From: a virus
DNA: 27,772 bases
Virus record (IMG/VR): IMGVR_UViG_3300000116_000159
Span: 1 to 27,772 of that record
Strand: one strand, 5' to 3'
Numbering within the stretch: position 1 is the first letter of the stretch; every line of letters begins with the position of its first letter. Below, in pieces: positions 3-22,900 of the stretch. The translations under genes and the position numbers were made by a program. The notes under the pieces are model-generated. The model had not been told where the DNA came from. It worked only from the letters and a program-made list of their open reading frames with translations, and did not search any database.

Positions 3-131
3 CATGATCGAATTGACGCCGAAGGTTATGTCTACAGCAATGAGTTTGGCACAATGAAACTGGTCAATCGTAAGCAGTTCAGTTATGCTAACTTCAACAA
101 CGCTAAGTTTAATAAAGAGGTGTGCCAGTGA
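3..131 (+). CDS. 3' end of a truncated gene, unknown product
   Basis: An open frame enters from the left edge and ends at TGA 129-131, giving 42 visible residues rich in Asn, Lys, Phe and Tyr (it contains YSNEFGTMKL and FSYANFNNAKFNKEV). The start lies outside the window. Its base composition is more AT-rich than that of the four microgenes that follow, so it may belong to the phage backbone and not to the GC-rich block. I recognise no family. No intrinsic terminator follows; the next promoter-like -10 (175-180) lies about 45 bases downstream. The frame is uninterrupted and the amino acid make-up is protein-like, which is why it is listed. Confidence 0.55.
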   Translation, partial: HDRIDAEGYVYSNEFGTMKLVNRKQFSYANFNNAKFNKEVCQ

Positions 132-174
132 GCGCACTGTCCACCCACTCCCCGATTGCGGCAGATCTGCCCCC

Positions 175-203
175 TATAATGGTTTCAGTTCAAACGAACC
201 CAG
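175..203 (+). promoter_or_regulatory. -10 element plus conserved leader, copy 1
   Basis: TATAAT at 175-180 is preceded by a C-run and followed by the leader TCAGTTCAAACGAACCCAG, which runs directly into ATG 204. Almost the same string precedes the gene at 481. No good -35 lies 16-18 bp upstream. No Shine-Dalgarno sequence is visible, so the start region itself may be recognised by the ribosome. Expected transcription start is about 20 bases before the ATG. Confidence 0.6.
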
Positions 204-413
204 ATGACCTACGCCGTTCAACCCGCTGCCTGGACATCCTTCGATCCCTACGGTTGCGACTGGGCAACCGACATTAACCACGCCTACCGCCTGGGGCAAC
301 TCTGGGGTGAGACCTGCATGATCTGGATGTGCCCCGATAAAGGCACCCCGATCCGCTGGTGCCGCACCGATAGCAACACCAACGCCATTGCCGACCTGGT
401 GTTCGGTTGCTGA
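204..413 (+). CDS. 69-aa hypothetical microprotein
   Basis: A short protein rich in Trp and Cys (4 Trp, 5 Cys in 69 aa), ending in Cys. There is no signal peptide, membrane segment or motif I recognise. The start is supported by the promoter/leader module that ends exactly at this ATG (175-203). Codon choice is strongly GC-rich (GCC, CTG, ACC, CGC), unlike the structural genes to the right. It is the first of four consecutive forward microgenes, each apparently with its own promoter or leader, a layout typical of small accessory or host-takeover genes in phages. That role is inference from arrangement only. The spaced cysteines could bind metal but form no recognised zinc motif. Confidence 0.6.
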   Translation: MTYAVQPAAWTSFDPYGCDWATDINHAYRLGQLWGETCMIWMCPDKGTPIRWCRTDSNTNAIADLVFGC

Positions 414-452
414 ACTGGACCCAATCCGCCCCGAAGGGCACTCCTGACCCCT

Positions 453-480
453 TATACTGATCTCAGTTCAAACGAATCCG
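453..480 (+). promoter_or_regulatory. -10 element plus conserved leader, copy 2
   Basis: TATACT at 453-458 is followed by CTCAGTTCAAACGAATCCG, running straight into ATG 481. Compared with copy 1, the core CAGTTCAAACGAA is identical, the flanking bases CTG(C/A)CCCC are shared, and the distance from -10 to ATG is almost the same. Neither copy has a clear -35 or a Shine-Dalgarno sequence. Confidence 0.6.
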
Positions 481-744
481 ATGAGCACCGCTACTTACAA
501 CGGTTGGGCAAACTACGAAACCTGGAATGCCTCCCTGTGGATCGGAAACGATGAGTTTCTGTACAACACCGCAAAGGCATGTGTTGAGTTCTGTGCCCCA
601 TGGGAGACCCCCTGGGAGAAGTTCCAACGCTGCATGATGGACGGACAGATCGGACGCCACCTTGGTGCCACTGGCGATGGGGTAGCATGGAACGACCCCG
701 CCATCGACGCCCAGGAGATGGAGGAGATGATGGCAGACCTCTGA
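481..744 (+). CDS. 87-aa phage protein with NYETWN motif
   Basis: The N-terminus carries YNGWANYETWNASLWIGND (from residue 6), a signature I recognise from a widespread family of small phage proteins of unknown function (I believe labelled DUF7249). The rest is acidic and helical in character, with a Trp- and Cys-containing middle and a Met/Glu-rich tail (EMEEMMADL). It is soluble, with no signal peptide or membrane segment. The start at 481 is set by the leader repeat that abuts it and by the family-like N-terminus. GC-rich codon use matches its microgene neighbours. Function is unknown; position among promoter-bearing microgenes fits an accessory role in infection. Identity as a real phage gene is secure, function is not. 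Confidence 0.8.
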   Translation: MSTATYNGWANYETWNASLWIGNDEFLYNTAKACVEFCAPWETPWEKFQRCMMDGQIGRHLGATGDGVAWNDPAIDAQEMEEMMADL

Positions 745-788: not shown

Positions 789-935
789 ATGACCCGCGAC
801 CTCGCTACCTCCCTCCTGAACCGTGCCGCTGACGGTGCCCAACTCCTGGCGATCCTGGAAACGATCGCCGCCGATTCCGACCAGGGAAACGCTGCCGAAA
901 TCAGCACCCCCACCGCTGACCCCATCGCCTTCTGA
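789..935 (+). CDS. 48-aa microprotein, MTRDLA type
   Basis: Begins MTRDLATSLLNRAADGAQLL and continues as an Ala/Leu-rich, probably helical segment (residues 1-30), then an acidic tail. It resembles very short cyanophage proteins of unknown function that begin similarly; this is from memory, not a search. The frame stays open upstream to about 600, but a longer start would overlap the previous gene, and the ATG at 789 follows a leader (768-788, TTTCAAACCACAAACCAAC) that resembles the repeat before genes 204 and 481. No Shine-Dalgarno or clear -10 is visible, so it could be co-transcribed with the gene at 481. Function unknown. Confidence 0.6.
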   Translation: MTRDLATSLLNRAADGAQLLAILETIAADSDQGNAAEISTPTADPIAF

Positions 936-940
936 TCTGC

Positions 941-971
941 TACAATATTCAAGAACACGCAACCGATTCCG
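941..971 (+). promoter_or_regulatory. -10 element plus leader, copy 3 (diverged)
   Basis: TACAAT at 941-946 lies 31 bases before ATG 972, the same geometry as copies 1 (29) and 2 (28). The leader is less similar (ATTCAAGAACACGCAACC) but keeps the TTCAA-GAAC-ACC character and ends ATTCCG before the ATG, like copy 2 (AATCCG). It overlaps the 3' flank of the preceding gene, whose stop is at 933-935. Confidence 0.45.
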
Positions 972-1166
972 ATGCCTTCCACCACCACCATCAACGGCGT
1001 TCAATTCAAGGTCACCCGCCTGCCGATCGCCCATGGCACTGCCGCCAATCGTTGGACGGATCGCATCAAAGGCGGATCCTCCCGCGTTCGTACTCACGGC
1101 GGTGCTGCTGGATCCCGTGGCACTTCCATGAGCACCAAGGCAAGCGCCCTGCAGGACGTGCGCTGA
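972..1166 (+). CDS. 64-aa basic hypothetical microprotein
   Basis: Starts MPSTTTINGVQFKVTRLPIA and becomes a low-complexity, strongly basic Gly/Arg/Ser/Thr-rich segment after residue 30. This is compatible with nucleic acid binding or a disordered tail, but no known domain is seen. The ATG follows a -10-like element and leader with the spacing used by two other genes in the block. Base composition is high in GC, like the genes to its left. A strong intrinsic terminator starts 26 bases after the stop, which supports this being the last gene of a transcribed unit. Function unknown. Confidence 0.55.
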   Translation: MPSTTTINGVQFKVTRLPIAHGTAANRWTDRIKGGSSRVRTHGGAAGSRGTSMSTKASALQDVR

Positions 1167-1191: not shown

Positions 1192-1214
1192 GGGGGCGTT
1201 GTGCCCCCTTTTTT
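1192..1214 (+). terminator. intrinsic terminator closing the microgene block
   Basis: GGGGGC (1192-1197) pairs perfectly with GCCCCC (1203-1208) over a 5-base loop, followed by six T (1209-1214). It sits just after the last GC-rich microgene and marks the point where base composition changes, so it bounds the block both transcriptionally and compositionally. Confidence 0.9.
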
Positions 1215-1371
1215 ATGGGCGGGCGTTCTTGTATATTAAAAACGCATAGGATCCCCTAAGCTATAAAGTGTTACGATCGCCAGCTATTTCTAAAACCACA
1301 AAGAATTACCGAGGGGGTCTAAAAAATTTTTCGCTATATAAAAGACAGAAAAAGGTTTTATATACTGAGAG
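1215..1371. other. non-coding spacer with hairpin, G-run and A6T5 tract
   Basis: No credible gene lies here. It holds an imperfect hairpin (GCGTTCTT at 1223-1230 with AAAAACGC at 1238-1245, one mismatch), a G5 run (1313-1317), then AAAAAATTTTT (1321-1331), and two AT-rich promoter-like strings (TATATAAAA from 1335 and TATACT at 1361-1366) ahead of the ATG at 1372. The A6T5 tract should bend DNA. It is probably the control region of the gene at 1372; no tRNA or riboswitch fold was found. Confidence 0.4.
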
Positions 1372-1542
1372 ATGAGAAAAAATTCCGGAGGTAGTTCCAA
1401 GTTCGTACAAGTCGATCCAGTAACAGGGGAGTACTTTTTAATTATCCCTGAGTGGGTCATCAACGAACTCTCATGGTATGAAGACACAGAAATTGGGTTC
1501 ACTGTTGAGGGTAATGAAGTGCTGCTCAGGGAAAAAGACTGA
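1372..1542 (+). CDS. AbrB/SpoVT-like 56-aa protein
   Basis: The 56-aa product contains VDPVTGEYFLIIPEWVINEL, then WYEDTEIGFTVEGNEVLL, which has the pattern of a swapped-hairpin AbrB/MazE-type DNA-binding domain: a strand, an I-P-x-x-V helix start, L-x-W, then a G-x-x-I/V-x-F/L strand ending E-G-x-x-V-x-L. Similar single-domain proteins occur in cyanophages, as I recall. Such proteins dimerise and may act as transcription regulators or antitoxin-like factors; no toxin partner is visible here. The gene stands alone between the 1215-1371 control region and the sigma-70-like promoter at 1564. No clear Shine-Dalgarno is present. The assignment is fold-pattern recognition, the regulatory role is inference. 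Confidence 0.6.
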   Translation: MRKNSGGSSKFVQVDPVTGEYFLIIPEWVINELSWYEDTEIGFTVEGNEVLLREKD

Positions 1543-1563
1543 GAGATTTTCAATAGAAGGCAA

Positions 1564-1592
1564 TTGACAACCCATACATAATACTGTATGAT
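1564..1592 (+). promoter_or_regulatory. consensus sigma-70 promoter for the glycosyltransferase unit
   Basis: TTGACA (1564-1569), exactly 17 bp, then TATGAT (1587-1592). The -35 is a perfect match and the -10 differs at one position. The expected start near 1599 leaves a leader of about 16 bases before ATG 1615. This is the best host-type promoter in the window and predicts transcription by unmodified host RNA polymerase, that is, early expression. Confidence 0.8.
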
Positions 1593-1614
1593 ACTGAAGT
1601 AACTACGCTCTATT

Positions 1615-2373
1615 ATGGCTAAAGGATTTACTGTAAAAGCAAAGAGTCCCATGCCAACTCGGGAAGAACCCGAGTGGGACTACGAAAAGGCAAAAGAAAT
1701 GGTAAGGGGCAAGGCAATTGTATTTTGCCTACCAGGAAGAGGAGTTTCTTACACTTACTTGAAGAACTTCGTACAGCTCTGTTTTGATCTCGTACAGGCA
1801 GGTGCCAGTATTCAGATTTCACAAGATTATAGTTCCATGGTGAACTTTGCACGTTGTAAGTGCCTTGGTGCTAACGTTCTGCGAGGTCCCGATCAAAAAC
1901 CTTGGGATGGTAAACTCAAGTATGATTGGCAACTGTGGATTGATAGTGATATTGTTTTCAATAGTGAAAAGTTCTGGCAACTGATTCTGATGGATAAGGA
2001 CATTGCTTCTGGTTGGTACTGCACTGAAGATGGTCACACTACCTCTGTTGCACATTGGATGGAAGAAGATGACTTCCGTAATAATGGTGGTGTGATGAAC
2101 CACGAAACTCTGGATAGTATTCAGAAGCGTCGTAAGCCATTCACAGTTGATTATGCTGGTTTTGGGTGGTTACTCATCAAGAATGGAGTGTTTGAACACG
2201 ATGAAATGAAGTATCCTTGGTTTGCTCCGAAGATGCAAGTCTTTGAATCTGGTGAGGTTCAGGACATGTGTGGAGAGGATGTAAGTTTCTGCCTGGATGC
2301 AAAGGAAGCAGGATTTGAGATCTGGTGTGATCCTCGCATTCGCGTTGGTCACGAAAAAACAAGAGTTATTTGA
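1615..2373 (+). CDS. GT-A-type glycosyltransferase-like protein
   Basis: The 252-aa protein has the marks of a metal-dependent GT-A glycosyltransferase. An N-terminal Rossmann-like strand (AIVFCLPGRGVSYTYLKNF) is followed by helix and strand segments, then WIDSD with the Asp-x-Asp metal site at D110/D112, a GED motif with candidate base D222, and a C-terminal His (H246, in VGHEK) in the place of the third metal ligand. The stretch around MVNFARCKCLGANVLRG recalls Anp1-type mannosyltransferase-like proteins. No membrane segment is seen. It has its own sigma-70-like promoter 22 bases upstream and leads a unit with the two microgenes that follow 4 and 2 bases after each stop. The acceptor (virion protein, DNA base or host glycan) cannot be told from the sequence. 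Confidence 0.65.
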   Translation: MAKGFTVKAKSPMPTREEPEWDYEKAKEMVRGKAIVFCLPGRGVSYTYLKNFVQLCFDLVQAGASIQISQDYSSMVNFARCKCLGANVLRGPDQKPWDGKLKYDWQLWIDSDIVFNSEKFWQLILMDKDIASGWYCTEDGHTTSVAHWMEEDDFRNNGGVMNHETLDSIQKRRKPFTVDYAGFGWLLIKNGVFEHDEMKYPWFAPKMQVFESGEVQDMCGEDVSFCLDAKEAGFEIWCDPRIRVGHEKTRVI

Positions 2374-2377
2374 TACG

Positions 2378-2536
2378 ATGGCAGACAAATACAATATTCT
2401 TTGTAAAGGGAGTAAAATTTATACAAATCTTTCAGAGGAAGAGTATTTCGATGCCATGGAGGATCTTGCCTCTCAGTTTTATGAGCAAGGTTCTCCAAAA
2501 CCTGAAGAAATTAACACTGAAATTATTGGAGATTAA
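2378..2536 (+). CDS. 52-aa acidic conserved-type phage protein
   Basis: Begins MADKYNILCKGSKIYTNLSE and continues as an acidic helical segment (EEEYFDAMEDLASQFYEQG). It resembles a small cyanophage protein type of unknown function, from memory. The frame is open further upstream, but the ATG at 2378 is chosen because it lies 4 bases after the glycosyltransferase stop and gives the family-like N-terminus; a start at 2297 would lie deep inside the previous gene. Translation is probably coupled to both neighbours. No known domain. Confidence 0.7.
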   Translation: MADKYNILCKGSKIYTNLSEEEYFDAMEDLASQFYEQGSPKPEEINTEIIGD

Positions 2537-2538
2537 TT

Positions 2539-2676
2539 ATGGCAATGCGTAAAGGTGGCGGTTATGTGCCCGGGAAACCCAAAAAGTCTCGGCAGGGCAA
2601 CGGGATGAATACTAAGTATGCCGCGTCGTCTCGTAACAAAGCACGTAAACCCTATCGCGGACAAGGTAAAGGTTAA
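2539..2676 (+). CDS. 45-aa very basic microprotein
   Basis: A Gly/Lys/Arg-rich peptide (MAMRKGGGYVPGKPKKSRQG at the N-terminus, RNKARKPYRGQGKG at the end) with no acidic residue, likely disordered and nucleic acid- or ribosome-binding by charge. Its ATG comes 2 bases after the stop of the acidic 52-aa gene, so a very acidic and a very basic microprotein are translated back to back. Its DNA is more GC-rich than its neighbours. Similar short basic proteins appear in cyanophage genomes, as I recall, without assigned function. Confidence 0.65.
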   Translation: MAMRKGGGYVPGKPKKSRQGNGMNTKYAASSRNKARKPYRGQGKG

Positions 2677-2703
2677 ATAACAACAGAATAATAAACTTAA
2701 CAC

Positions 2704-3360
2704 ATGTCTTGTTTAATTACGAACTTACCATCAGTTGAAGTATGGGTTCGTAAAGAGTATCTAACTGATCATCAAAGTGGACATGGTGAATTTGTAAAGG
2801 GCGTTTGGGTTTCGGCAAAGTCGATTCCTGGACGCGCTTTTTATTTTGAGACTTATTTGCCCGAATACGCGGCAATGTACGATAAATTGCCCATCAGTGC
2901 CTTCTTGTCGCGCCCAGAAACACCAGACCCTGATATGAATCTACCAAATCTACAGTTTTGGAACTGTATGGACTATGGTGTAGTAAGTATTAATAAGAAA
3001 TTCATTGGAAGTATGGATTTTGAGTGCTATACACGCGATCATGGCATTCAAAAAGGCACTTATGTTTGTACAATAGACAATTATCACCGTGATCCAGACA
3101 TGGTTGACTATGCCACGAGTGAAAATCCTGCTGAACATAAGTCTCATAACCTCATTGAACTGAATAATGGGCAATATGCACTGTATCCAAACAACAGATT
3201 ACGCATTTTTGATAATAGTCTAACTCCAAAAGAACCAAAAATGCCCGATTTTAAGGTTTCGACTCAATATTATCAAGTTGAAAATGGTTATGAACGTCTT
3301 GGGATTGGTGATGAAGACGAATATCACTGGAAAACGGCACAAGAAAGAGAAAATAAATAG
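2704..3360 (+). CDS. 218-aa hypothetical phage protein
   Basis: A soluble mixed alpha/beta protein, rich in Tyr, Pro and Asp, with no signal peptide or membrane helix. The N-terminus (MSCLITNLPSVEVWVRKEYL) and the segment FWNCMDYGVVSINKKFIGSM read like a small beta-rich fold; the C-terminal third carries a Pro-rich link and an acidic stretch (GIGDEDEYHW). I believe equivalents exist in other T4-like cyanophages near the baseplate genes, which would fit a minor virion or assembly role, but no domain can be named. It starts 27 bases after the basic microgene; its TAG stop overlaps the late-promoter-like octamer for speD. Confidence 0.65.
   Translation: MSCLITNLPSVEVWVRKEYLTDHQSGHGEFVKGVWVSAKSIPGRAFYFETYLPEYAAMYDKLPISAFLSRPETPDPDMNLPNLQFWNCMDYGVVSINKKFIGSMDFECYTRDHGIQKGTYVCTIDNYHRDPDMVDYATSENPAEHKSHNLIELNNGQYALYPNNRLRIFDNSLTPKEPKMPDFKVSTQYYQVENGYERLGIGDEDEYHWKTAQERENK
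3352..3359 (+). promoter_or_regulatory. T4-type late promoter octamer for speD
   Basis: AATAAATA matches the T4 late consensus TATAAATA at seven of eight positions. It overlaps the TAG stop (3358-3360) of the preceding gene and lies 37-44 bases before the speD ATG. It predicts late, sigma-gp55-type transcription of speD. Confidence 0.55.
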
Positions 3361-3395
3361 TTTTTTGTTAGAAAACTGAATTGGAACACTTTTCT

Positions 3396-3722
3396 ATGGG
3401 AAAACACCTCCTTCTTGAGGTGTATGATGTTGACTATGACCTTATAAACAGCATTGAAGACCTCAAAAATGTCATGATTAAAGGCATTGAACGTGCTGAT
3501 ATGACAATTTTGAATGTTTTTTCTCATTGTTTCATCCCACAAGGGTGTACTGTAGTGATTGCACTAGCAGAAAGTCATGTTTCGTGCCATACTTGGCCAG
3601 AAAATGGGTGTTTAGCAGTGGATGTGTACACTTGTGGGGCAGGAAACCCAAAATTAATTGCCTTGGAGATACTAAAATACCTTAATTCTGATAATTACTC
3701 ACTCAGAGAAGTTGCTCGTTAA
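3396..3722 (+). CDS. speD: S-adenosylmethionine decarboxylase proenzyme (SpeD)
   Basis: A 108-aa bacterial/archaeal-type AdoMetDC, which decarboxylates S-adenosylmethionine to supply aminopropyl groups for spermidine. The self-cleavage site is Glu59-Ser60 in LAESHVSCHTWPENG; Ser60 becomes the pyruvoyl group, and His65 and Cys80 (YTCGAG) match the processing and catalytic residues. Their spacing equals that of the Thermotoga maritima enzyme (Ser63, His68, Cys83). All key residues are present, so it should be active. ATG 3396 gives the usual N-terminus (MGKHLLLEVYDVD); a TTG at 3381 would add five residues. No speE is in the window, so the product must be used by a host aminopropyltransferase or a phage gene elsewhere. 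speD is a known cyanophage auxiliary metabolic gene. A late-type promoter precedes it. Confidence 0.95.
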   Translation: MGKHLLLEVYDVDYDLINSIEDLKNVMIKGIERADMTILNVFSHCFIPQGCTVVIALAESHVSCHTWPENGCLAVDVYTCGAGNPKLIALEILKYLNSDNYSLREVAR

Positions 3723-3730
3723 ATAAAATT

Positions 3731-3781
3731 AAGGAGATAGCAACCTCCTTCATAAAAGTTCTGTTTTATGTCCTAAAACAG
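3731..3781 (+). promoter_or_regulatory. tandem hairpins between speD and the 83-aa gene
   Basis: Two inverted repeats lie side by side: AAGGAG (3731-3736) with CTCCTT (3745-3750), 8-base loop; and CTGTTTTA (3761-3768) with TAAAACAG (3774-3781), a perfect 8-bp stem with a 5-base loop. Neither is followed by a T-run, so a classical intrinsic terminator is unlikely. They could stabilise mRNA ends, mark processing, or control translation of the gene starting at 3790. Confidence 0.45.
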
Positions 3782-3789
3782 TAGCTAAA

Positions 3790-4041
3790 ATGTCTAACTC
3801 ACCAGTAGATAGAGATCAAGAATACATGTATCAGATGTGGGGAACCGATAGACTCGCATCAGATTATGGTTCAATGAGGGATTTACCATCAAAAAGAGTC
3901 ATTACAGAGGTTATGCATGATCTTGCACCTAAGCACGATCTTAAAAAGCAAACTGAATTGCATGAAAAGATTCGCAATGATGAGGATTATGATGATTGGT
4001 CGTATGGAACTGAACCAATATACGGCAATCCCTGGCATTAA
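3790..4041 (+). CDS. 83-aa hypothetical acidic protein
   Basis: A hydrophilic, Asp/Tyr-rich, probably largely disordered protein (MSNSPVDRDQEYMYQMWGTD at the start, DDWSYGTEPIYGNPWH at the end). No motif, membrane segment or signal peptide. The ATG lies 8 bases after the second of two hairpins; no Shine-Dalgarno is near. The next gene, gp25, follows after a late-promoter-like octamer placed directly behind this gene's stop. Its place immediately before the baseplate cluster hints at a tail-related or late role, but the sequence gives no function. Confidence 0.6.
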   Translation: MSNSPVDRDQEYMYQMWGTDRLASDYGSMRDLPSKRVITEVMHDLAPKHDLKKQTELHEKIRNDEDYDDWSYGTEPIYGNPWH

Positions 4042-4042
4042 G

Positions 4043-4050
4043 CATAAATA
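4043..4050 (+). promoter_or_regulatory. T4-type late promoter octamer for the gp25-gp6-gp7 unit
   Basis: CATAAATA (4043-4050) matches TATAAATA at seven of eight positions, begins 2 bases after the upstream stop (4039-4041), and lies 24 bases before the gp25 ATG. gp25, gp6 and the giant gene then follow with gaps of 1 base each and no other promoter, so this octamer may drive about 14 kb of transcript. Confidence 0.65.
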
Positions 4051-4073
4051 AAGGCAAGAAAACTCTCGTTCAG

Positions 4074-4475
4074 ATGGCAATTCAAAGGATATCTAGATCA
4101 TTTAAAGATATTAGTTTATCCTTTGAACCCCATCCGGTAACAAAGGATCTAACGATTCTTAAAAATGAGAACGCAATCAAAAGATCCGTAAGGAATTTAG
4201 TGGAGACCATTCCAACGGAAAGGTTTTTTAACTCTCTTTTGGGATCAGAAGTACGTTCAAGTCTATTTGAGTTTGTTGATTTTGGTACTGCTTCTGTTAT
4301 TCAAAGGCAAATTGAGATTACGTTAGACAACTTTGAACCAAGAATTGAAAATGTACAGGTTGAGGTTAATCCAAGTCCTGATACTAATGAATTCGAAGTC
4401 ACTGTTATCTTTGATATTGTTGGACAAGAGTTTCCAACCCAGGAGTTCACATTCATATTAGAGGCAACAAGATAA
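4074..4475 (+). CDS. 25: gp25-like baseplate wedge protein
   Basis: 133 aa, the normal length for the gp25/GPW family. In T4, gp25 sits where the baseplate wedge meets the sheath and nucleates sheath assembly. Family marks include the N-terminal RISRSFKDISLSFEPHP, the middle block KNENAIKRSVRNLVETIPTE with the conserved N-x-I-x-x-S/R-x-x-N-L-x-x-T-x-x-G/E-E-R pattern, and the RQIEITLDNFEPRIENVQV segment. The start at 4074 gives the family N-terminus and is 24 bases behind a late promoter octamer. gp6 begins 1 base after its stop, consistent with coupled translation and with T4 gene order. Confidence 0.95.
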   Translation: MAIQRISRSFKDISLSFEPHPVTKDLTILKNENAIKRSVRNLVETIPTERFFNSLLGSEVRSSLFEFVDFGTASVIQRQIEITLDNFEPRIENVQVEVNPSPDTNEFEVTVIFDIVGQEFPTQEFTFILEATR

Positions 4476-4476
4476 A

Positions 4477-6444
4477 ATGCCTTTCACTAAGTTTTCTAAT
4501 TTAGACTTTGATCAAATCAGAGAATCTATCAAAGATTATCTCCGTGCTAACTCTACGTTCACGGATTTTGATTTTGAAGGTTCAAACTTCTCAGTCTTAA
4601 TTGATACGTTAGCATATAATACTTACATTACAGCATTCAACTCGAATATGGTTGTGAATGAATCCTTCTTGGATTCGGCAACTCTTCGTGAAAATGTTGT
4701 TTCACTGGCAAGGAACATTGGATATGTTCCACGCTCCAGAACCGCCGCTAAGGCATCTGTTTCTTTCAACGTACAAACTAGTACAACAAGTCCTACACTA
4801 ACCTTACAGGCGGGTTTAGTGTGCGTAGGAAGTGTAAATGACACTTCTTATGTATTTTCAATCCCAGAAAATATAACAACAACAGTGAATGATGGTGTTG
4901 CTACTTTTGGAACAGCGACCGATCCTCTTAGTGTCTATCAAGGAACATTTTTAAGTAAGCAATTTGTTGTTGATGGATCACTAGATCAAAGATTTTTACT
5001 TGACAACTCTTTCATTGATAGTTCAACTATTGTTGTTTATGTAAAGGGTATATCTGATACTGGTTTGGGTAGAGAATATTCTAAAATTGACAATATTTTA
5101 AACGTAAAATCAACTTCTGAAACTTACTTGATTCAAGAAGTTCAAGATGAAAAGTATGAACTCCTCTTTGGTGATGGTATATTTGGTAAGAAACTAGAGG
5201 ATGGTACTATCATCACTGTAACGTATATTGTTACTGACGGAAAAGAAGGTAATGGACCTTCCACATTCTCATTCTCTGGTAGTTTGAGAGGTTCATCGGA
5301 TGAGATTGTTGTACCTACAACTACTCCAACTATAACAACCATCTCTGCGGCATCTAACGGCGGCGACATCGAGAGTATCGACTCTGTTAAGTACTTTGCC
5401 CCTAGACTGTATTCAGCGCAGTACAGAGCGGTTACAGGAAGGGACTACGAAACTATTATCCAATCAATCTATCCAAACACCGAGAGTGTATCTGTAGTTG
5501 GTGGTGAGGAGTTAGATCCGCCACAGTTTGGAACAGTATTCATTACAATTAAACCAAAGAATGGTGAATTTGTATCTGACTTTGACAAGCAACAAATTCT
5601 TTCAAAACTAAAGAATTACTCTTTAACGGGAATTAATCAAAAGATACTTGAACTCAAGTTACTTTACATTGAGATGGATTCTTTTGTCTACTATAACTCG
5701 GCAAAAGTTACCAACGTTGCTGATCTCAAGACTAATATTGTTAATGGATTAGGGGCATACGCTGATTCTAAGGATATTAATAAGTTTGGTGGCAGATTTA
5801 AATATAGTAAGGTTCTCAGTGTGATTGATAATATTGATTCTGCTATAACATCAAACATTACTAAGATCAAGATCAGAAGAAACCTGAAAGCATTAACAAA
5901 TCAGCTGGCACAGTATGAACTATGTTATGGAAATAAGTTTCATGTAAATCCTACTGGTGCTAATATTAAATCTACCGGATTTACTATTTCGGGCGAATCT
6001 TCTACTGTATACTTTACAGATACACCCAATATTGTTCAGGGAGATACTGACGTAAGAAATCGTCTTACTGCTGCTGGTGTATTCACAAGTAGACCAACAA
6101 GTATTTCAGCAAAAACTGGTGTTCTTTCCATCATTAAAATTGATTCTGGTGGACAAAGATCTGTTGTTGCTAGAGACGTTGGTACTGTAGATTATGAAAA
6201 AGGTGAAATCATTATCGGAACAATCAATATAACATCAACAGTTAAACCAAATAATATCATCGAAATTCAGGCATTCCCAGAATCAAATGATGTCATTGCA
6301 CTTAAAGATTTGTATTTGAATTTTGACATCTCGAATAGTTCAATAAATATGGTTAAAGATACTATTACTTCTGGTGAACAGATATCTGGAGTTGGATTTA
6401 AGGTTACCTCAAGCTATACAAACGGAGAACTAACAAGGGGATAA
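4477..6444 (+). CDS. 6: gp6-like baseplate wedge protein
   Basis: 655 aa, close to T4 gp6 (660 aa). gp6 dimers link neighbouring wedges and form the ring around the baseplate hub. The N-terminus (FSNLDFDQIRESIKDYLRAN, then FTDFDFEGSNFSVLIDTLAY and LRENVVSLARNIGYVPRSRT) is the classic gp6/baseplate-J-like opening. The central block RLYSAQYRAVTGRDYETIIQ with IYPNTESVSVVGGEEL is the conserved core of the same superfamily. Residues after about 490 are more variable and beta-rich. It lies between gp25 (1-base gap) and the giant gene (1-base gap). Full length, no frameshift. Confidence 0.95.
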   Translation: MPFTKFSNLDFDQIRESIKDYLRANSTFTDFDFEGSNFSVLIDTLAYNTYITAFNSNMVVNESFLDSATLRENVVSLARNIGYVPRSRTAAKASVSFNVQTSTTSPTLTLQAGLVCVGSVNDTSYVFSIPENITTTVNDGVATFGTATDPLSVYQGTFLSKQFVVDGSLDQRFLLDNSFIDSSTIVVYVKGISDTGLGREYSKIDNILNVKSTSETYLIQEVQDEKYELLFGDGIFGKKLEDGTIITVTYIVTDGKEGNGPSTFSFSGSLRGSSDEIVVPTTTPTITTISAASNGGDIESIDSVKYFAPRLYSAQYRAVTGRDYETIIQSIYPNTESVSVVGGEELDPPQFGTVFITIKPKNGEFVSDFDKQQILSKLKNYSLTGINQKILELKLLYIEMDSFVYYNSAKVTNVADLKTNIVNGLGAYADSKDINKFGGRFKYSKVLSVIDNIDSAITSNITKIKIRRNLKALTNQLAQYELCYGNKFHVNPTGANIKSTGFTISGESSTVYFTDTPNIVQGDTDVRNRLTAAGVFTSRPTSISAKTGVLSIIKIDSGGQRSVVARDVGTVDYEKGEIIIGTINITSTVKPNNIIEIQAFPESNDVIALKDLYLNFDISNSSINMVKDTITSGEQISGVGFKVTSSYTNGELTRG

Positions 6445-6445
6445 T

Positions 6446-9400
6446 ATGATCACAACGGGTTTTGAAACGAGAGTTAAAGTTCAGCAGATTATTGAAAATC
6501 AATTACCTGAGTTTATATTATCAGAAAGTCCAAAGACTGTTGATTTCTTAAAGCAATACTATGTTTCTCAAGAATATCAGGGTGCACCTGTAGATATTGC
6601 TGAGAATCTAGACCAATATTTAAAAGTTGATAATCTAACACCAGAGGTTGTTGTTGGGTTTACGTCTCTAGAGTCGTCAATATCTTCTACAGATGAGACT
6701 ATTCAGGTTTCATCAACGAAAGGATTTCCTCCAGAGTATGGTCTTTTAAAGATTGATGATGAGATTATCACTTACACCGGATTAACAACCAACACATTTA
6801 CTGGTTGTGTTCGGGGTTTTAGTGGAATCACCACTTATAGATCCGAAAATAATCCCCAAGAACTAACCTTTTCGTCTTCTGTTAGTTCTTCTCATGATTC
6901 TGATAGTAGGGTTGAGAACCTAAGTTCCCTATTTTTAAAAGAATTTTATAATAAGTTAAAATACTCTCTTACTCCTGGATTGGAGAATGTTGATTTTGTT
7001 TCTAATTTAAACGTTGGAAACTTTATAAAGGAAGCAAGGACGTTTTATGAAGCAAAGGGAACGGAAGAATCTTTTAGAATATTATTTAATGTTCTATTTG
7101 GAGTTACTCCAAAAGTAATAGATTTGGAGCAGTTTTTGATCAAACCATCTTCTGCAGAATTTTTAAGAAGAGAAGTTATAGTAATTGAACAAATTTCTGG
7201 CGATCCAAATAAGTTAATTGGTCAAACAATAATAAGTTCAAAGGATCCAAATACTAATGCTTCTGTTTCTGAAGTTGAAATTTTTACAAGGAGTCAAAAA
7301 GTAGGGTATGCCCAAACATATTATAAGGTTGGTTTATTTGTTGGGTATAATGATAATGATTTAATTAATGGATCTTTTGGTATCACACCAAATACCAAAG
7401 TACTATCTACTGTTAACTCTGGAGCGTCTGTAATAACAGTAGATTCAACAGTTGGTTTTGCTCAGACAGGAACACTAATTTCTTCTGGAAATGTAATTAC
7501 ATATTCAGATAAGAGTGTAAATCAATTCTTAGGATGTAACGGAGTCGATACAGATATTCCAACGGCAAGTAATATCAGATCTGATGATACTTACTATGGT
7601 TATGAAGATGGTGATCTAACCAAAAAAGTAGAATTTAGAATTACTGGTTCATTATCATCTTTTAATACAAAGAGTGACGTTACATCAACTATTGAGGGAG
7701 AAAAAGTATATGTTAAGAATGTTGGTGAAAAAATATTAAATCCAGACGATAATAAAACATTCAAACAAGAATTTTTTAATTCCTGGATATACAATACAAG
7801 TTGTAGATTTAATGTGGATTCTATTTCTGGATCGACATTTACGTTAAAAACAGATATTGACAAATCTTCTTTGAGAGTTAATGATTCTATTGATATCTTG
7901 ACTTCAAATTCCAATAATGTTGTTGTTTCTGGGGCTACTGTTTCCAGTATCAATGAAGGTCTTGGACAAGTTATTTTGGATAATCTTGGTGGATTTTCAC
8001 CAACATCTGGAATTGAATACGATCTAAGAAGAAATATTAAAACAGCTTCTAGTTCTGGACTCTCTATTGATGTTGGCAATAATACTGCTTTCTCTGATGT
8101 TCAGAACACATATAATGATGGAAATGAATATTTTTACGTTGCTTCAAATTCTTTACCATCATATGAGGTTACTGAGAATTTAATTTCTAAGCAAATTGAT
8201 TCTGCTGTGGCAGGATCAACAATTCAGGGATATAATGATACAACACAGAAATACTCAATTATTTCTTTTTCATCTTCTGTTGATTTTCTCACAGGTGATA
8301 GTGTTTATTATCAACCAGAATCTGCACCATTATTTGGATTAACTGAAGGGATATATTATGTTAAGGTTATAGGATCTGGAAATCAAATTAGACTTTATTC
8401 TTCTAGATCTTTTATCCATAGTGATGATTACTTGGAGTTTAACTTACCAACTCAATCATCAGGATACCATAGGTTTATTCTTTCTTCGGAGAGAAATCTA
8501 TCGATAACACCACAAAAGATATTGAGAAAGTTTCCAGCATCTTCAAATATTAATGATTCTGGAAAAGATAAGACGGAAGTTGGATCTGTTGGTATGTTGA
8601 TAAACGGTGTTGAAATTATCAACTACAAGTCTGATGATAAAGTTTATTATGGTCCACTAGAAAGAGTGTCTATAGTTAATTCTGGATCAAACTATGATGT
8701 AGTAAATCCACCAATTATAGAAATTTCTAGACCATCTGTTGGTACAACAGCACTTGTTCAGCCTGTTGTATCTGGATCCGTCAAGTCAGTTTTAGTTGAT
8801 CCATCAGAATTTGACATTTCTAACGTTATTTCTGTTTCTATTACTGGTGGAAACGGTAATGGAGTAATATTAGAACCAGTTTTGAGAACGAGATATAGAG
8901 ATGTATCTTTTAGTGGTGTTGACATTTCTTCCGGTGGTGGAGTAGATTTTTCAGCAGAAACAATTACTTTCTTATCAAACCATAATTTTGTAGATGGGCA
9001 AAAAATTGTTTATGATAAAAACGGAAATAGTGAACTTGGTATTGGAAGTTATGGTGGTTCAAATACTGATCAAGGAAGAACTTTAAAGAATGGATCAGTA
9101 TATTTTACTAAAGTTGTAAACAATAAGACTATTAGGTTATTTGAAAGTGATAAGGATTACTATGCTGGGATAAACACCGTTGGTTTTACAACAATATCCA
9201 ATCAGGGTATCCATAAATTTAGAGTATTTGATGGAAAGAAAAATATTTCACAAATAAAAGTTATTAACTCTGGTAGTGGATACACCAATAGAGTTTTGAG
9301 GGTAAAACCTGTTGGAATATCTACAACAGAAAACCTAGTAATTTTCCAAAATCACAACTTTAAAGATGGTGAACTAGTTAAGTATGAATCAACTGGATCT

Positions 9401-12400
9401 GTAATATCTGGACTATCAACCTCTAATCAATACTACATTCTTTCCAATGATAGTAATAGTTTTAGACTTGCTAATGCTGGTGTTGCTGGAACAATAAAAT
9501 CAAATTATATTAGAAAGAATTATGTTGAATTTGAATCTGTAGGATCGGGATACCACACTTTCTCATATCCAGATATCAATATAAATGTTAACGTTTCTTA
9601 TGGTAGCAGTATAACAGGTATTATTACTGCTACTCCAATCATTAGGGGTGAGATTATTGATGCTTATTTGTATGAATCTGGAACTGGATACGGTTCAACT
9701 ACCTTAAACCTACATAAAAAACCACTTATCTCAATTAAGACTGGTAAGAATGCACAATTAAAACCTATTATTATATCTGGAAAGATTGAAAAAGTTTCCA
9801 TTCTATCTCAAGGAATTGAATATAATGCTGCTCCAGACTTAGTTGTAGTTGGTGATGGAACAGGTGCTGTACTTAGAGCGATTGTTTCTAATGGATCTAT
9901 AACTGATGTTATTGTTATAACCCCTGGTTCTGGATATACTGAAGAAAAAACAACAATTACGGTTAAACCGCCAGGTTCAAATGGAATGCTTGATGTTGAT
10001 GTAAGATCATTAACGCTGAATAATCGATATAGATTTGGAGATGAAATTCTATATTCCTCTGGTAATGGTCTTCAGTATGGAATTGTTGGGTATTCTACAG
10101 CAATAGGAAATAAGTTTACTGTAGATGAGGGTAATCAACATTCTCCCATTGTTGGGTGGGCATATGATGGCAATCCAATTTATGGTCCATATGGATATTC
10201 TGACCCAGATGATGAGAATTCACCACTAAAGTTGGTTGAAACTGGATACACTTTAGATATATCCAATATAACCAACAGACCAAGTTTTGATTCTGGATTT
10301 TTTGTTGAGGATTACTCCTTTGATTCGACTGGAGATCTCGATGTTCATAATGGAAGATATTGTAAAACTCCAGAGTTTCCACAAGGAACTTATGCTTATT
10401 TCTGTGGTATTAAGACAGACTCTCTATCAAATAATTTGGTTGCCGAGTTCCCATATTTTATTGGTGATACTTTTAACTCTAAGTTTTACATAGAAAACAA
10501 AAAACTAGATCAAACATTTGATTTTAATAACTCAAATCTAATCAGAAACACATTCCCATATAAAGTTTCTGAAAAATATGCTGATAATGACTTTATTTCA
10601 GAATCTTATGAAATTACAAATCAAACAACAAAAATTGATTCTGTTACTACCGGATCTGTAGAATCATTTACTATTGTTTCTTCTGGAGAAGACTATAAAA
10701 TTGGAGATGTTGCCAATTTTAACAATGATGGAACAAATGGTGGCGGTGTAACTGCTTCGATTTCAAGGTTGACTGGTAAAGAAATCGTTGATCTTTCAAC
10801 ATCGATTGAAACTTATGAAGATGCTGTAATTACTTGGAAGAATCAGAATCAGGTTGAAGTTTATGTAGATCCATATCATTCTCTTCTTGATGGTGATTAT
10901 GTCACTATTTCTGGTCTTTCTACTTTTGTACAGGGCATATCAAAAACACATAAAATTGGAGTATCGACAGATCATTCATCCCTAAACAAACAAGTTCCAG
11001 CGAACGCAACTGCTGGTGTTGTAACTGACATTTATCTTTCTAGAAATTTAAAATTAGTATCTGTAGGATCATCTATTGGAATTGGTACAGAAGTTCTTTC
11101 AGTGTTAAATGTCTTTGATACTGAGAAAGTTCTCAGAGTTAAGAGAGGTATTGTTGGATCTGCCCATACAGCATCGACGCAAGTTTCTTTAGAACCAAGC
11201 ACATTCACTTTACCAACATCTTCACAATATTTTAACTCTAAAGTCAACGATAAGGTTTATTTTAATCCAAGAAGTTCTGTTGGTGTTGGAACAACATCAG
11301 GAATTGGTGTTGCCGTAGATTTCCCTCTGGGTGAAGTAACAAATACAATTTCAATACCAACTCAAAGCATATATTTACCAAACCACCCATTCAAAACAAA
11401 TCAGCAAGTAACTTTATATAAGAAGAGTTCTTCTAGTGCAATCTCTGTTGGAACAACCTCTGGAGATATACCATTCAATCTACCAATAAGTGGCGATTCA
11501 CAGACCGTTTACGTTATCAATAAATCGAAAGACTTTATTGGTTTAACAACATCTGTTGGTTTAACCACAAATACTGATGGATTATTCTTCTTTAATAACG
11601 GAAGTGATGATTATGAGTATTATTTGGAAAGTGCATATACTCAAGTAACTGGAAAAGTAGAAAGGATTAAGACTACAGTATCTGTTTCTACAGATCACCA
11701 ATTAAGAAATGGTGATAAAGTCGTATTTGATATAACACCAAATTTAACCGTTGGAATTGGAACATCAACGGAAGTAAGAGTTAAATATAATTCTTCAATT
11801 GAAAAGATTGTAATTGATCCTGTTGGTTTTGGATCAGAATCTATAATCACTTCCTCAAATAAAATTAATATTGAGAATCATGGATACAAAACTGGTGATA
11901 AAATTTTCTATGACTCTTCAGACTTAATTGCTTCTGGATTAGAAACAGGAAGTTACTATGTTTATAGAATTGATGATAATAATTTTAATCTGTGCGAAAC
12001 TAAGTATGATGTTTCTTTAAATCCACCAACTATAGTAAGTATAGCTGGAACTGGAGGTTTTGGGCAAGAATTTAGTCTTATTAATCCAAGAATTGAGACT
12101 TATATTGGCAACAATCTTAAATTTGATTTAAGTGACTCTTCTTTACAAGGATATGAGTTTAAGATTTATACAAATTCAACTTTTGGAAATGAGTTTGTCT
12201 CTGTAGGAAACACCACACCATTTACAGTTATTGGTGTTGGAACGGTAGGAGTTTCAACTAATGCCTCATTGACTCTAAACTATGATTCAAATATTCCATC
12301 AAAATTATTCTATAATGTAGAAAAATCTGGATTTATTAGTACCTCAGATACTAGTGTATCTGATTATTCAATGATATCAATTATCGAAAGTAAGTACAAT

Positions 12401-15400
12401 AACAAGGAATATCAAGTTATTGGCACTGGATCAACAACTTTTGACGTTGCTCTTACTGGTAAACCAGAAAGATTAAGTTACTCTCCAAATAATTGCAGTA
12501 AGATTGAGTATACTACAACATCATTAAACGAGAAAGGTGGAGTTGCCAAATTAAGCATTCTTTCTGGTGGATTCAATTATAAGAAAACTCCTTCGTTTAT
12601 AGATATCACTTCAATTGAAGGAAAGAATGCTTCCATTATAGCAATCTCACAATCCATTGGTAGGATTAAAAATACTACTATTTTAGATCAGGGATTCGAT
12701 TATTCATGCGACAGAACTCTCAGACCAGAAGCATATATTTCTCCAAAAATTAATTTAAAAAATTCCAGTGAAATTGCAAATATTTCTGTTATTGATGGTG
12801 GAAGAAATTATTCTTCTCTACCAGAATTAGTAGTTGTTAATTCTGTAACTAGAGAAAAGAATGATAGTGGTATTTTATCTCCAGTGTTAGCATCAAATTC
12901 AATTGCATCTGTAGATATTACTAGAAGTCCAAAAGGTTTACCGTTTGGAAATGTTGAAATCTTTACTATAAACAATACAAATGGTATTGGAATTAACACT
13001 ATGGAAACTTCCACATCTGGAATTGTTACTTGCTATATGAATACACCAACTTTTGGTTATACACAATCTCCTTTTACTGTTGGTGACAAGATATTTGTTG
13101 AGGGAATTGAAAATGTAGATTCCAATGGGACGGGATTTAACTCTGATGACAATGGATATCAGTTTTTCATTGTATCAAGTTTCCAAAACACTAATCCAGC
13201 AGTTTTAGAATTTGATATTTCTGGTATTACAACTAATCCAGGAATAGCAAAAACAAACCAAAGTTCTTATGCCAATATTATAAATCATAATGATTATCCT
13301 AAGTTTGAAGTAACAACAGCGTATTCGGATTTCTTAATTGGCGAAAAGTTATCTACAGATAACAGAGATGGATTTATTCTCAGAGACTTATCAGTAACAG
13401 AATATGGAAAAGGATATGTAAAGGTTTATGGATCTTATAACTTAAGTGTTGGTGAGATTCTGAAAGGGGAAAATTCTGGGACTCTAGCTACTGTTGAGAC
13501 CATAACAAATAATGAAGGTATATTTGATGTTCGTTACTCATCAGAAAAAAATTATGAGTGGGCAAATAGTGTTGGAAAACTTGGTGTTGATTATCAAGTT
13601 ATTCCAGATAATGATTATTACCAAAATTTATCATATACTGTTAAGAGTCCAGTAGCATATGAGGATTTAATCAATCCTGTCAATAGACTACTTCATACAT
13701 CTGGATTGAAAAACTTTGCCGATACTGAAATTGAGGAATCTGTTAATGTTGGGACATCTCTAACAAGTACTTCAGAATCCATCGTTGTTAGAGATATTTT
13801 AGAAGAAAAGAGAGTTGATACTATCAACTTCTATGACAATGTTGTTGATATTGACACTATCACCAATGGAAATGGTCAAATCAAATCTAAGTTTCTCAAG
13901 TTAAAGAGTAAATCATTAGCAGATTACATCAGATGTAGTACAAATAGAGTTTTAAAAATTGATGACTTCAGTACTCAATTCAAAAATAGAAACAATACGA
14001 CAGAAGAATACGTTGACATTGTCTCTTATGATAATAGTTACTCTGAGTTTTTAATACAAGCAGTAGATCCAAATGGAACTGATAGACAAATAACAGAACT
14101 AATTGTTTTAAATAATGGTTTGAACTCAATAACCCTGGAGAAATCTTCTTTATACAATACTGAAAATGAAATTGCTGATATTCAATCCATCATTGATGAA
14201 TTTGGAAATTTATATCTCAGATTTTCTCCAGAGGATACTGAAAATACTGATTATAATATCAAGGTACTTAACTCAAGTTTCAATTCTGTTCTGAGTGGAA
14301 TTAGTACACAATCTATTGGATTTATTGATATTATTGGTGCCAATAAATTGGTTGGAGTTGGTTCAACTGGAACTGTAGTCGGATTCTCTACTCTTACAAC
14401 ATCTTCGGTATATGGTAAGTTCCAAGTTTATGATCGGATTTCAGATCAGATTAACTTTGTAGAACTAGAAATTGACCATGATGGAGAAAATACTTATATT
14501 TCAGAATTCTATAGTGACAGTAGTCTCGGAAGTGTTGGTGGTCTAATCGGATCATTTGGTATTTCTATTGATAGTGGTGTGCTAACACTCGACTTTACAA
14601 ATAATTCCACTAACGAAATCTTAGTAAGAGGTAAATTAGTTGGATTTGGATCAACATCTGTTGGTGTTGGAACATATAGATTCAAAACTTCGGCACAAAC
14701 AGATGGATCTGAGAGAAGCATAAAACTGGAATCTAATGTATCTTCTAGTTCAACGGTATTCTCTGCCGATAAGAGTCTTATTTCTTCAGTTAAATCCTTA
14801 GTCAGAGTTTCATATGGTGATACTACTTCTATTCATCAAGTGTTGATGACACATGATGGAACAGATGTTTACACTATGCAATACCCATTCATCTCAGTCG
14901 GAAGCACTAGTGGTATTGGAACATTTTCTGGTGAGTACAATGGAACCGATTTAGTTCTTAGTTTTTATCCAGATCCAAATATTGTTGGATCTTATGAAAT
15001 TCAAAGTTTGAATAAATTTTTCTATGAAGATAGTGATACTATTAATACGCCACCAGATCTAACCTACGGTCCCGTAACAGAAGCAGTCAATCTTGCGTTC
15101 TACAATTCTAAAAACGGATCTAGAGCAAATAAACTTGACTTTAATTTAAATTATGAAGAAACTCCAATCTTCGCCAAAACTTTTGATCCATCAGATTCAA
15201 CCATTCTTGATGCTGAGACTGGAATATTTACAATCAACAATCACTTCTTCAGCACTGGTGAAAGATTAAATTATACACCAAACAGTAGTGTAATTGGATT
15301 AGCATTCACTAGTGTTGGTATTGGATCAACAGCAACAGAAATATCTGGGGGTGTTGGTATTGGAACAACAGATGTTTTACCATCAACTGTTTATGCTATT

Positions 15401-19951: not shown

Positions 19952-22900
19952 ATGCCACAGAAGACTAATTTAAATATCAATCCATATTATGATGACTTTG
20001 ATCCGTCCGATAATTTCTATAGGGTATTATTTAAACCAGGATTCCCTGTTCAAGCTAGGGAATTAACTACTCTACAGTCAATTCTTCAAGAACAAATTGA
20101 ATCTTTTGGAAGCCATATTTTCAAAGAAGGATCAATGGTGATACCCGGAAGTATCACTTACGATCCCCAATATTATGCTGTTAAGTTAAATTCCGACCAT
20201 CTTGGAATTGATGTTTCTCTTTACATCAGGCAACTAGTTGGAAAAACACTACAGGGTCAAACAACAGGTATTACTGCCAAAGTAGTAAATTACTTGTTAC
20301 CACCATCTAAGGATGTAGAATCAGCAACATTATTTGTAAAATATATTGATTCAAATTCAGATTTTCAATTTACACCATTTGGCGATGGTGAAGTCTTAAT
20401 TACCCTTGATAGTGTTACTTATGGAAATACAACAATAAATTCTGGCGATACTGTAGCATCTCTAATTGACTCTGACGCGACTGCTATTGGAGCATCTGTA
20501 GGTATAACACCAGGAGTCTATTTTATTAGAGGTACTTTTGTAAATGTAGATGGAGATACTCTAATTGTTACTCCATTTACAAATAATCCTTCTTTCCGTG
20601 TAGGTTTACAAATAAAAGAAGAGATTATAAACGTTGGTGCAGATACATCTCTTTATGATAATGCTAAAGGTTTTTCAAACTTTGCTGCGCCTGGAGCAGA
20701 TAGATTAAAAATCTCAACAATTCTGACACAAAAAGAATTAACAGATTTTGATGATAAGGATTTTGTAGAAATTATAAGACTTGACAATGGAGAAATCAAA
20801 AAGTTACAAGATAAGTCACAATACTCAATAATTAAGGATTATTTTGCTAAGAGAACATTTGAAGAATCTGGAGATTATTCTGTAGATAACTTCGATATTC
20901 AAGTTGCCAATTCTCTTAATAATCGTATTTCTAATGAAGGTCTATATCTAGATACACAAAAGACAGAACAAGGCAATAATCCTAGTGATGATCTAATGTG
21001 TGTTAAGGTTTCTGCCGGAAAAGCATACGTCAGAGGATATGATATTGATCTTCCAGGAACAACAATTTTAGATGTTGAAAAACCAAGAGATGTACAATCA
21101 GTATCATCCTCCTTGGTCCCATTTGAAATGGGAAATAGATTAAAACTCAATAACGTTACTGGAACTCCAGTTATTGGTGTAGACAATAATGATAATACTG
21201 TAGATCTCAATAATCAAAGAACTAGCGGATCTTCTGCTGGAACTGGAACTACGATTGGTACGGCAAGAGTTTATTCTTTTGGAACAGCAGATAATTCTTT
21301 TTCTTCGTCTGCTTCTGAATGGGATTTGTATCTATTTGATATTCAAACATATACTGTATTATCTCTAAATGAGTCTGTACTAGCAGCAGATTGCCCTGAG
21401 ACCTCTTTCATTAGGGGTTTAAGTAGTGGAGCATCTGGATACACCGTAGGAACCCCTAGCGGGGCAGACGTAACCATTAACCAGACATCTGGAACCTTTA
21501 TTGCTGGTGAGCAAATTCTCGTCAACGAATCCAGAAGTCTAACCAGATCAGTAAAATCAGTTAAAGTTTATAGTACTGAAGATATTAAGTCAGTCTTCCA
21601 AAGATCTTCTGATCTTGGGTTAGAAACAAATTTTGTTGGAGATACAGTTTTACAAAGTTATACGCCTAATAAATTTACAATAACTGATAAACTACAAATT
21701 AATAATACTGGTATTGCTACTTGCCCAGGAAAAACATTTACTGGAATCAGAAGTGATGCTATTATTAGATATCAGATTGCCGGATTAACTGATGAAACAT
21801 TTAATAGAGTTGAAAGTGTTTCTTCCGATGGAACATCTCTACAATTAGCAACTGTTCCAACAACTTCTGGTATATGCAATGGTGCTTTCCCAACATCTGA
21901 AGTATTAACAACCTTCTCTGTTGGACGTCCACAAATAGGGAATACTGAAGATGCTTACTTATACGCTCCTATTTCTGCTTCTAATGTATCATCAGTAGAT
22001 CTATCAGGTTCAAACCTTTTAGTTTCCAGACAGATTACAGGTCAGTCAACAGACTCTACTGGATCATTAACAGTTAATGTTTCTTCAACAGGAATTTCTA
22101 GTGCATTCTTTGAAACTTTTGATGCGGAAAGATATTCCGTTTTCTATAGTAATGGTACTATCGAAGATTTAACAGATGATCAATTTACATTATCATCAAA
22201 TGCTACATTACTTACCCTTACTGGTTTAACTCCAAGTCAATCTGGAAATGTAACTGTAAATGTTTCTGTTAAGAAAAATTCAATACAGAATAAAACAAAA
22301 AATTATGTTAGAAGTCAGAAACTAACCGTCGATAAAGTAAGTTCGGGCGTTTCAACTTCAATAAGTGGTTTAACAACAAGTAATTACTATGGTTTAAGAG
22401 TTGATGATAAAGAAATTTCTCTTAATGTTCCAGATGTAGCAAATGTAATTGCTGTTTATGAATCTCTAGATTCCAGTTCACCCGTTTTAGATAAATTAAC
22501 TTTTGTTTCTGGTTTAAGTTTAGATACAGCATCAATTCTTGGTGAGAAAATAATCGGTCAAGAAAGTGGAGCAGTTGCTCAGTTAGCAACTAGATTATCT
22601 TCAACACAAGTTGAGTTTGTCTACTTAAACTCCAATAAGTTTACTGTTGGTGAAACGGTAAACTTTGAAGAATCAAATATTACCAGCAATATTGTTGCCA
22701 TTTCTTTTGGAAATTATCAGAATCTAACAAATTCTTTTGATCTTGATAAAGGGCAAAAAAATCAATATTATGATTATTCAAGAATCATAAGAAAAAAATC
22801 ATCCCAAACACCTTCAAGAAAACTATTGGTAGTATACAACTGCTATCAAGTGCCATCAAATGATAATGGTGATGTTTATACTGTAAATTCATATTCTTCA

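Follow-up and report, generated by a model that had tools for sequence, protein, structure and literature searches.

Viruses that infect cyanobacteria of oceans and lakes carry tiny genes in rows, and in front of each gene lies a copy of one switch, about 85 bases long, that combines a start signal and a short leader with what looks like a paired binding site. We think it probable that this is a promoter-leader cassette of T4-like cyanophages, in which an early promoter composed of an operator and a -10 element is shuffled in the manner of the PeSLs (promoter-early stem-loops) that Arbiol in 2010 and Comeau in 2014 reportedly described in T4-like phages.

In the mechanism that we propose, a putative dimeric activator would probably bind the palindromic operator. 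The operator would be followed by a spacer of 28-31 nt, often with a GC hairpin and usually without a -35 element; by a -10 hexamer that would be read by the host's sigma-70 RNA polymerase; and by a conserved A/C-rich leader without a Shine-Dalgarno sequence, which runs into the ATG. The operator and the -10 together would form a general class of phage promoter, which is probably early. Because near-identical cassettes lie at both ends of a unit, recombination between them could insert, remove, or exchange an entire gene along with its own promoter.

The cassettes of the window

The window (the entire 27,772-base stretch from IMG/VR that we analyzed) comes from a T4-like cyanophage, and its best DNA matches are Synechococcus myoviruses. 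Its relevant features are:

119..144, + strand: palindrome of cassette 1, GGTGTGCCAGTGAGCGCACTGTCCAC, the proposed operator (matrix score 20.7; 30 nt from its end to the -10)
160..171, + strand: short GC hairpin GGCAGATCTGCC in the spacer of cassette 1 (from sequence and fold, and from the excess of hairpins across cassettes)
175..180, + strand: -10 element TATAAT of cassette 1
185..198, + strand: conserved leader TCAGTTCAAACGAA, copy 1, then ATG at 204
185..462, + strand: shufflable unit, from one leader to the next (missing en bloc in loci L008, L066, and others)
204..413, + strand: 69-aa small gene, phrog_6036-like
397..422, + strand: palindrome of cassette 2, TGGTGTTCGGTTGCTGAACTGGACCC (score 15.6; 30 nt from its end to the -10)
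428..439, + strand: spacer hairpin GCCCCGAAGGGC of cassette 2 (from sequence and fold)
453..458, + strand: -10 element TATACT of cassette 2
463..476, + strand: conserved leader, copy 2, a 14-mer identical to copy 1, then ATG at 481
481..744, + strand: 87-aa small gene, DUF7249 / phrog_871
789..935, + strand: 48-aa small gene that lacks a -10 of its own
941..971, + strand: third, diverged cassette (TACAATATTC retained, TCAGTTCA lost)
972..1166, + strand: 64-aa small gene (an unrelated gene takes its place in L011)
1192..1214, + strand: strong intrinsic terminator, GGGGGCGTTGTGCCCCC-TTTTTT, which closes the small-gene island
4074-4475: gp25
4477-6444: gp6

The first-pass annotation had described two copies of a -10, a leader, and an ATG in front of unrelated proteins, with no -35 element. 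Both copies are as described, neither has a -35, and the proteins behind them (phrog_6036 and DUF7249/phrog_871) are indeed unrelated. The palindromes upstream (119-144 and 397-422) had been overlooked, and a palindrome at a fixed distance turns out to be the more general control element. The palindrome of cassette 1 overlaps a TGA at 129-131 and that of cassette 2 overlaps the stop codon of the gene at 204..413. The consensus and the fixed spacing across cassettes also back the palindrome at 119..144 as the proposed operator.

The third cassette has TACAAT at 941-946, at a similar distance from the ATG at 972. It lacks the 14-mer, and no palindrome lies at the place where one would be expected. 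The suggestion that it is a diverged copy is borne out by locus L079, where the homologue of the gene at 972-1166 stands behind a canonical cassette. The leader before 789 had been taken for a remnant; this is plausible, as homologues in L215 and L175 are preceded by full cassettes, but it is unproven, and there is no -10 at that position. With three mismatches allowed, matches to the 14-mer are not uncommon in the window (6 occurrences versus 5.0 expected). For the small proteins, the only Pfam names to pass the cut-offs were DUF7249 and Kyano_Gp96.

Both cassettes sit inside the GC-rich first 1.2 kb of the window (54-62% GC, versus 30-43% in the stretch examined at 1,201-8,000). More broadly, in positions 1-1200 of the window and in 30 array loci, the small-gene islands have a mean of 57% GC, versus 40% elsewhere in the same loci. 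Just beyond the island, at 1564-1592, there is a host-like promoter (TTGACA-17-TATGAT) before a gene at 1615, which belongs to phrog_1574 and is distantly glycosyltransferase-like. Very long open reading frames of 3976 aa (6446-18376) and 2350 aa (19952-27004) probably encode virion fibre proteins. A search for RNA families in positions 1-1400 matched nothing at the curated threshold. A search of the window for tRNAs found none, so a tRNA-derived leader is without support.

Proposed operator, -10, and leader in related viruses

The first-pass annotation had made its reading depend on the motif occurring before other genes of this genome and its relatives, and about 365 distinct copies are present in related viral DNA. 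An iterated matrix for the -10 and leader, run over viral loci totalling 2.06 Mb, identified 559 places (365 distinct), versus 4 in a Markov shuffle of the same size. Scanning IMG/VR for exact TCAGTTCAAACGAA identified at least 120 stretches, and among the matches listed, many are arranged as -10, 4 nt, leader, 3-10 nt, and ATG before differing genes. The string of -10 and leader was found in 115 viral stretches, and a scan for it in 84,980 cellular genomes gave no matches. Behind 487 of 495 scored cassettes there is an open reading frame of 30 aa or more, with a median of 66 aa. These fall into about 71 unrelated families of mostly small genes, a number that depends on the BLAST threshold. 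Within each of 98 contigs (98/98), the cassettes are all on one strand, and gp25/gp6 lie downstream on the same strand in all 56 of the contigs that carry them; many contigs are fragments of related viruses with shared ancestry, so the cassette counts are not independent events.

Upstream of 215 of 247 non-redundant cassettes, we found a palindrome with the consensus TGTGMCAGTT-N4-AACTGKCMCA. It ends 28-31 nt before the -10 in 197 cassettes, while shuffled upstream sequences gave 24 and no peak. When we scanned for perfect palindromes without reference to the leader, those with a 4-nt centre were found in at least 120 viral stretches, those with a 5-nt centre in 4, and those with a 6-nt centre, which served as the spacing control, in none. 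In this leader-independent set (89 distinct sites), strong -10 elements peak at 28-31 nt (62 counts versus about 1 per position). The TCAGTTCA leader accompanies just 1 of 60 leader-independent sites with a palindrome and a -10, which implies that the operator and the -10 are the general element and that the leader marks a sub-type. Use of the TCAGTTCA sub-type is concentrated in a single small-gene island, which is rich in GC and lies upstream of gp25/gp6.

A TTGACA-like -35 (5 or 6 of 6 positions) is present in 22 of 247 cassettes (about 9%), and a -35-like hexamer is present in 29 of 60 leader-independent sites, so the operator is not a simple replacement for the -35. Motifs resembling a Shine-Dalgarno sequence were found in just 3% of cassettes, as expected from the first-pass annotation. 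Of 166 exact leaders, 147 lie precisely 4 nt after the -10, but the spacing between leader and start codon is loose (3 to 24 nt). This rigidity toward the -10 speaks for a role at the transcription start or the RNA 5' end rather than as a ribosome site. Mutual information between columns mostly reflects register shifts of 1-2 nt. Two other ideas about the leader failed: a small hairpin (GUUC-AAAC-GAAC) is broken by common variants such as TCAGTTCAGACAAC, and a substitute for the Shine-Dalgarno sequence at a fixed distance does not fit the variable spacing to the ATG.

Could these elements act as RNA instead? The palindrome might be a hairpin that ends the preceding gene, by processing or termination, rather than an operator; the stop codon of that gene often falls within it, and both copies in the window fold. 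We consider this unlikely: across 198 sequences, the arms show no compensatory covariation (pairing z = -2.0), for which reason we rejected an RNA hairpin, and the distance to the downstream -10 is fixed though the preceding stop codon moves. Given the lack of covariation, a protein-binding site is likelier, and the palindrome looks like two half-sites for a protein rather than an RNA stem. As for the spacers, 36% have a significant hairpin, versus 4.5% of coding controls, and 6% have a run of at least four Ts; with a hairpin in only about one-third of spacers and T-runs rare, a role as a terminator is weak. For the leader, an RNA role is somewhat doubtful but has more in its favor. A phage or host factor might bind this common 5' end of the mRNAs and so pick out early messages to be translated or stabilized. 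The leader would be transcribed if the -10 is used, it is A/C-rich and folds more weakly than shuffled sequences, and the scarcity of Shine-Dalgarno-like motifs also fits. However, its spacing is rigid toward the -10 and loose toward the start codon, and in Syn9 and at other sites, different leaders follow the same operator and -10.

Gain, loss, and replacement of single genes

Among 53 non-redundant gene orders, we found 40 differences in the presence or absence of a single unit. Furthermore, both orders occur for 36 of the 112 pairs of families that were seen at least 3 times. The window's own units take part in this. The alignment to L008 covers positions 1-198 and resumes at 499, and the skipped unit starts and ends in an identical leader; L066 leaves out 185-462 in the same way. 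The match to L011 breaks off within the third cassette, at 963, and picks up again at 1168; the gene that fills the gap is unrelated. The claim of a recombining expression cassette, with which new small genes can be brought under a single control signal, is well supported by the roughly 71 protein families behind one family of cassettes, by the single-unit and order differences, and by the exact absence or replacement of units in the window. We infer from these alignments that recombination between cassettes would be a simple explanation. A point against this is that any selection that removes broken genes would leave breakpoints at gene boundaries.

Ordinary duplication of promoters could also make leaders alike, if neighboring genes were diverged tandem duplicates. 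Some adjacent cassettes in S-PM2 do have identical leader variants (14781/15051 and 13700/13940/14226), and leaders are slightly more alike within a contig than between contigs (0.766 versus 0.745). But the 71 families have no detectable similarity, the spacers have fully diverged while the -10 and TCAGTTCA are invariant, and cassettes follow their gene family between contigs (0.816), so we think that duplication is improbable as the explanation. An integron-like array, with the palindrome or the leader as the site of site-specific recombination, would also have units of one gene each, all facing one way and bounded by repeats, as well as single-unit indels. This seems very improbable, as the same palindrome and -10 also precede individual genes at other places in the genome and there is no attC pairing pattern, the pairing of the palindrome's arms being not beyond chance. 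Recombination between promoter-leader cassettes is the reading we prefer. A more tentative extension, which is possible but which we would not bet on, is that the island captures genes: T4-like cyanophages would trade dozens of small genes of host-like GC singly, using the early operator-driven promoter and leader as the exchange module, with the leader as a third functional element at the first transcribed bases. The cassettes give a mechanism-level picture of how small genes without known function may enter and leave cyanophage genomes.

Relation to known elements, S-PM2, and Syn9

Like PeSLs, the cassettes put a promoter (plus a stem-loop, in PeSLs) between the small genes of a variable region. 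Near-identical intergenic copies lie before unrelated genes in a hyperplastic region (the 365 distinct copies and 71 families in one locale), and units are inserted, deleted, and swapped (the 40 single-unit polymorphisms, and the absence and replacement in the window). In contrast to a PeSL's sigma-70 promoter with -35 and -10, the cassette has an invariant -10 and usually no -35. It also has a fixed palindromic operator and a conserved leader that runs to the ATG, and its hairpin lacks a U-tract. Since most cassettes lack a -35 and only a minority have a stem-loop, the cassette works like the PeSLs of T4 but falls short of the full definition of a PeSL.

In Syn9, sites with the operator and a -10 are found in the small-gene region at 43-53 kb, with another repeated leader (ATAAGAGTCAAAG). 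Doron et al. are said to have reported, in ISME J in 2016, a "novel regulatory element" of early genes in this phage. This element likewise concerns early transcription in a T4-like cyanophage, and our operator may be the same element. If so, the operator was already known, and the leader, the arrays, and the shuffling are the new part.

In the middle promoters of T4 (MotA box and -10, no -35), an activator site takes the place of the -35 beside a sigma-70 -10, much as we propose for the cassette. The cassette's site, though, is a palindrome of 24 nt whose centre precedes the start by about 55 nt and whose end precedes the expected start by about 42 nt, not a MotA box near -30. Furthermore, cyanomyoviruses lack homologues of motA and asiA, and the control of early and middle genes in T4-like cyanophages without MotA/AsiA has been described as unclear (PMC2984593). 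The cassette offers a precise, testable promoter element that is present in S-PM2 and Syn9, both of which grow in laboratory culture. Halovirus HF2 also has repeated intergenic promoter elements, but it is an archaeal virus and the sequences are different (PMC8707807).

S-PM2 (LN828717) has 11 leader cassettes, all within 3 kb (12.0-15.1 kb) upstream of gp25. This questions a report according to which dense PeSL-like elements are missing from S-PM2 (PMC4503421). Elsewhere in S-PM2, operators followed at 27-31 nt by a -10 precede, for example, the genes for the peptidase, CobS, gp32, and the helicase. Judged by the annotation tables, no plus-strand site with this spacing lies inside a block of virion genes. 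The location of operator and -10 outside the structural-gene blocks of S-PM2 and Syn9 suggests early or middle timing.

We also question a second published reading, in which CCTATACTGATCTCAGTTC before S-PM2d250 is given as a Pho box (PMC10976474, Table 2), because that string is the cassette's -10 and leader. The locus tag S-PM2d250 is attached to two different coding sequences, at 12555-12722 in L125 and at 5833-5976 in L128 (S-PM2 155233-155376). The "Pho box" given in Table 2 agrees with the cassette in front of 12555 rather than with the gene at 155233 that Table 1 of the same paper lists.

The cassettes are also a way to find and annotate small genes, for example at 13,432-14,226 in S-PM2, where there are three cassettes and no annotated gene. 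At 12114-12386 and 14226-14432, the annotated minus-strand ORFs S-PM2d071 and S-PM2d074 overlie plus-strand ORFs that are led by cassettes. At 125616, a palindrome lies upstream of psbA, with TATAAT about 51 nt on. Several metagenomic sites have the palindrome and then a -35, a -10, and an overlapping late-type box (TATAAATA). Finally, at 5074 and 6682 in S-PM2, the operator and -10 are followed by near-identical leaders (ACAAAGGTAGTCAAGGGAACGCCCCATG and ACAAGGTAGTCAAGGGAACGCCCCATG) before different genes; this pair is a second leader sub-type.
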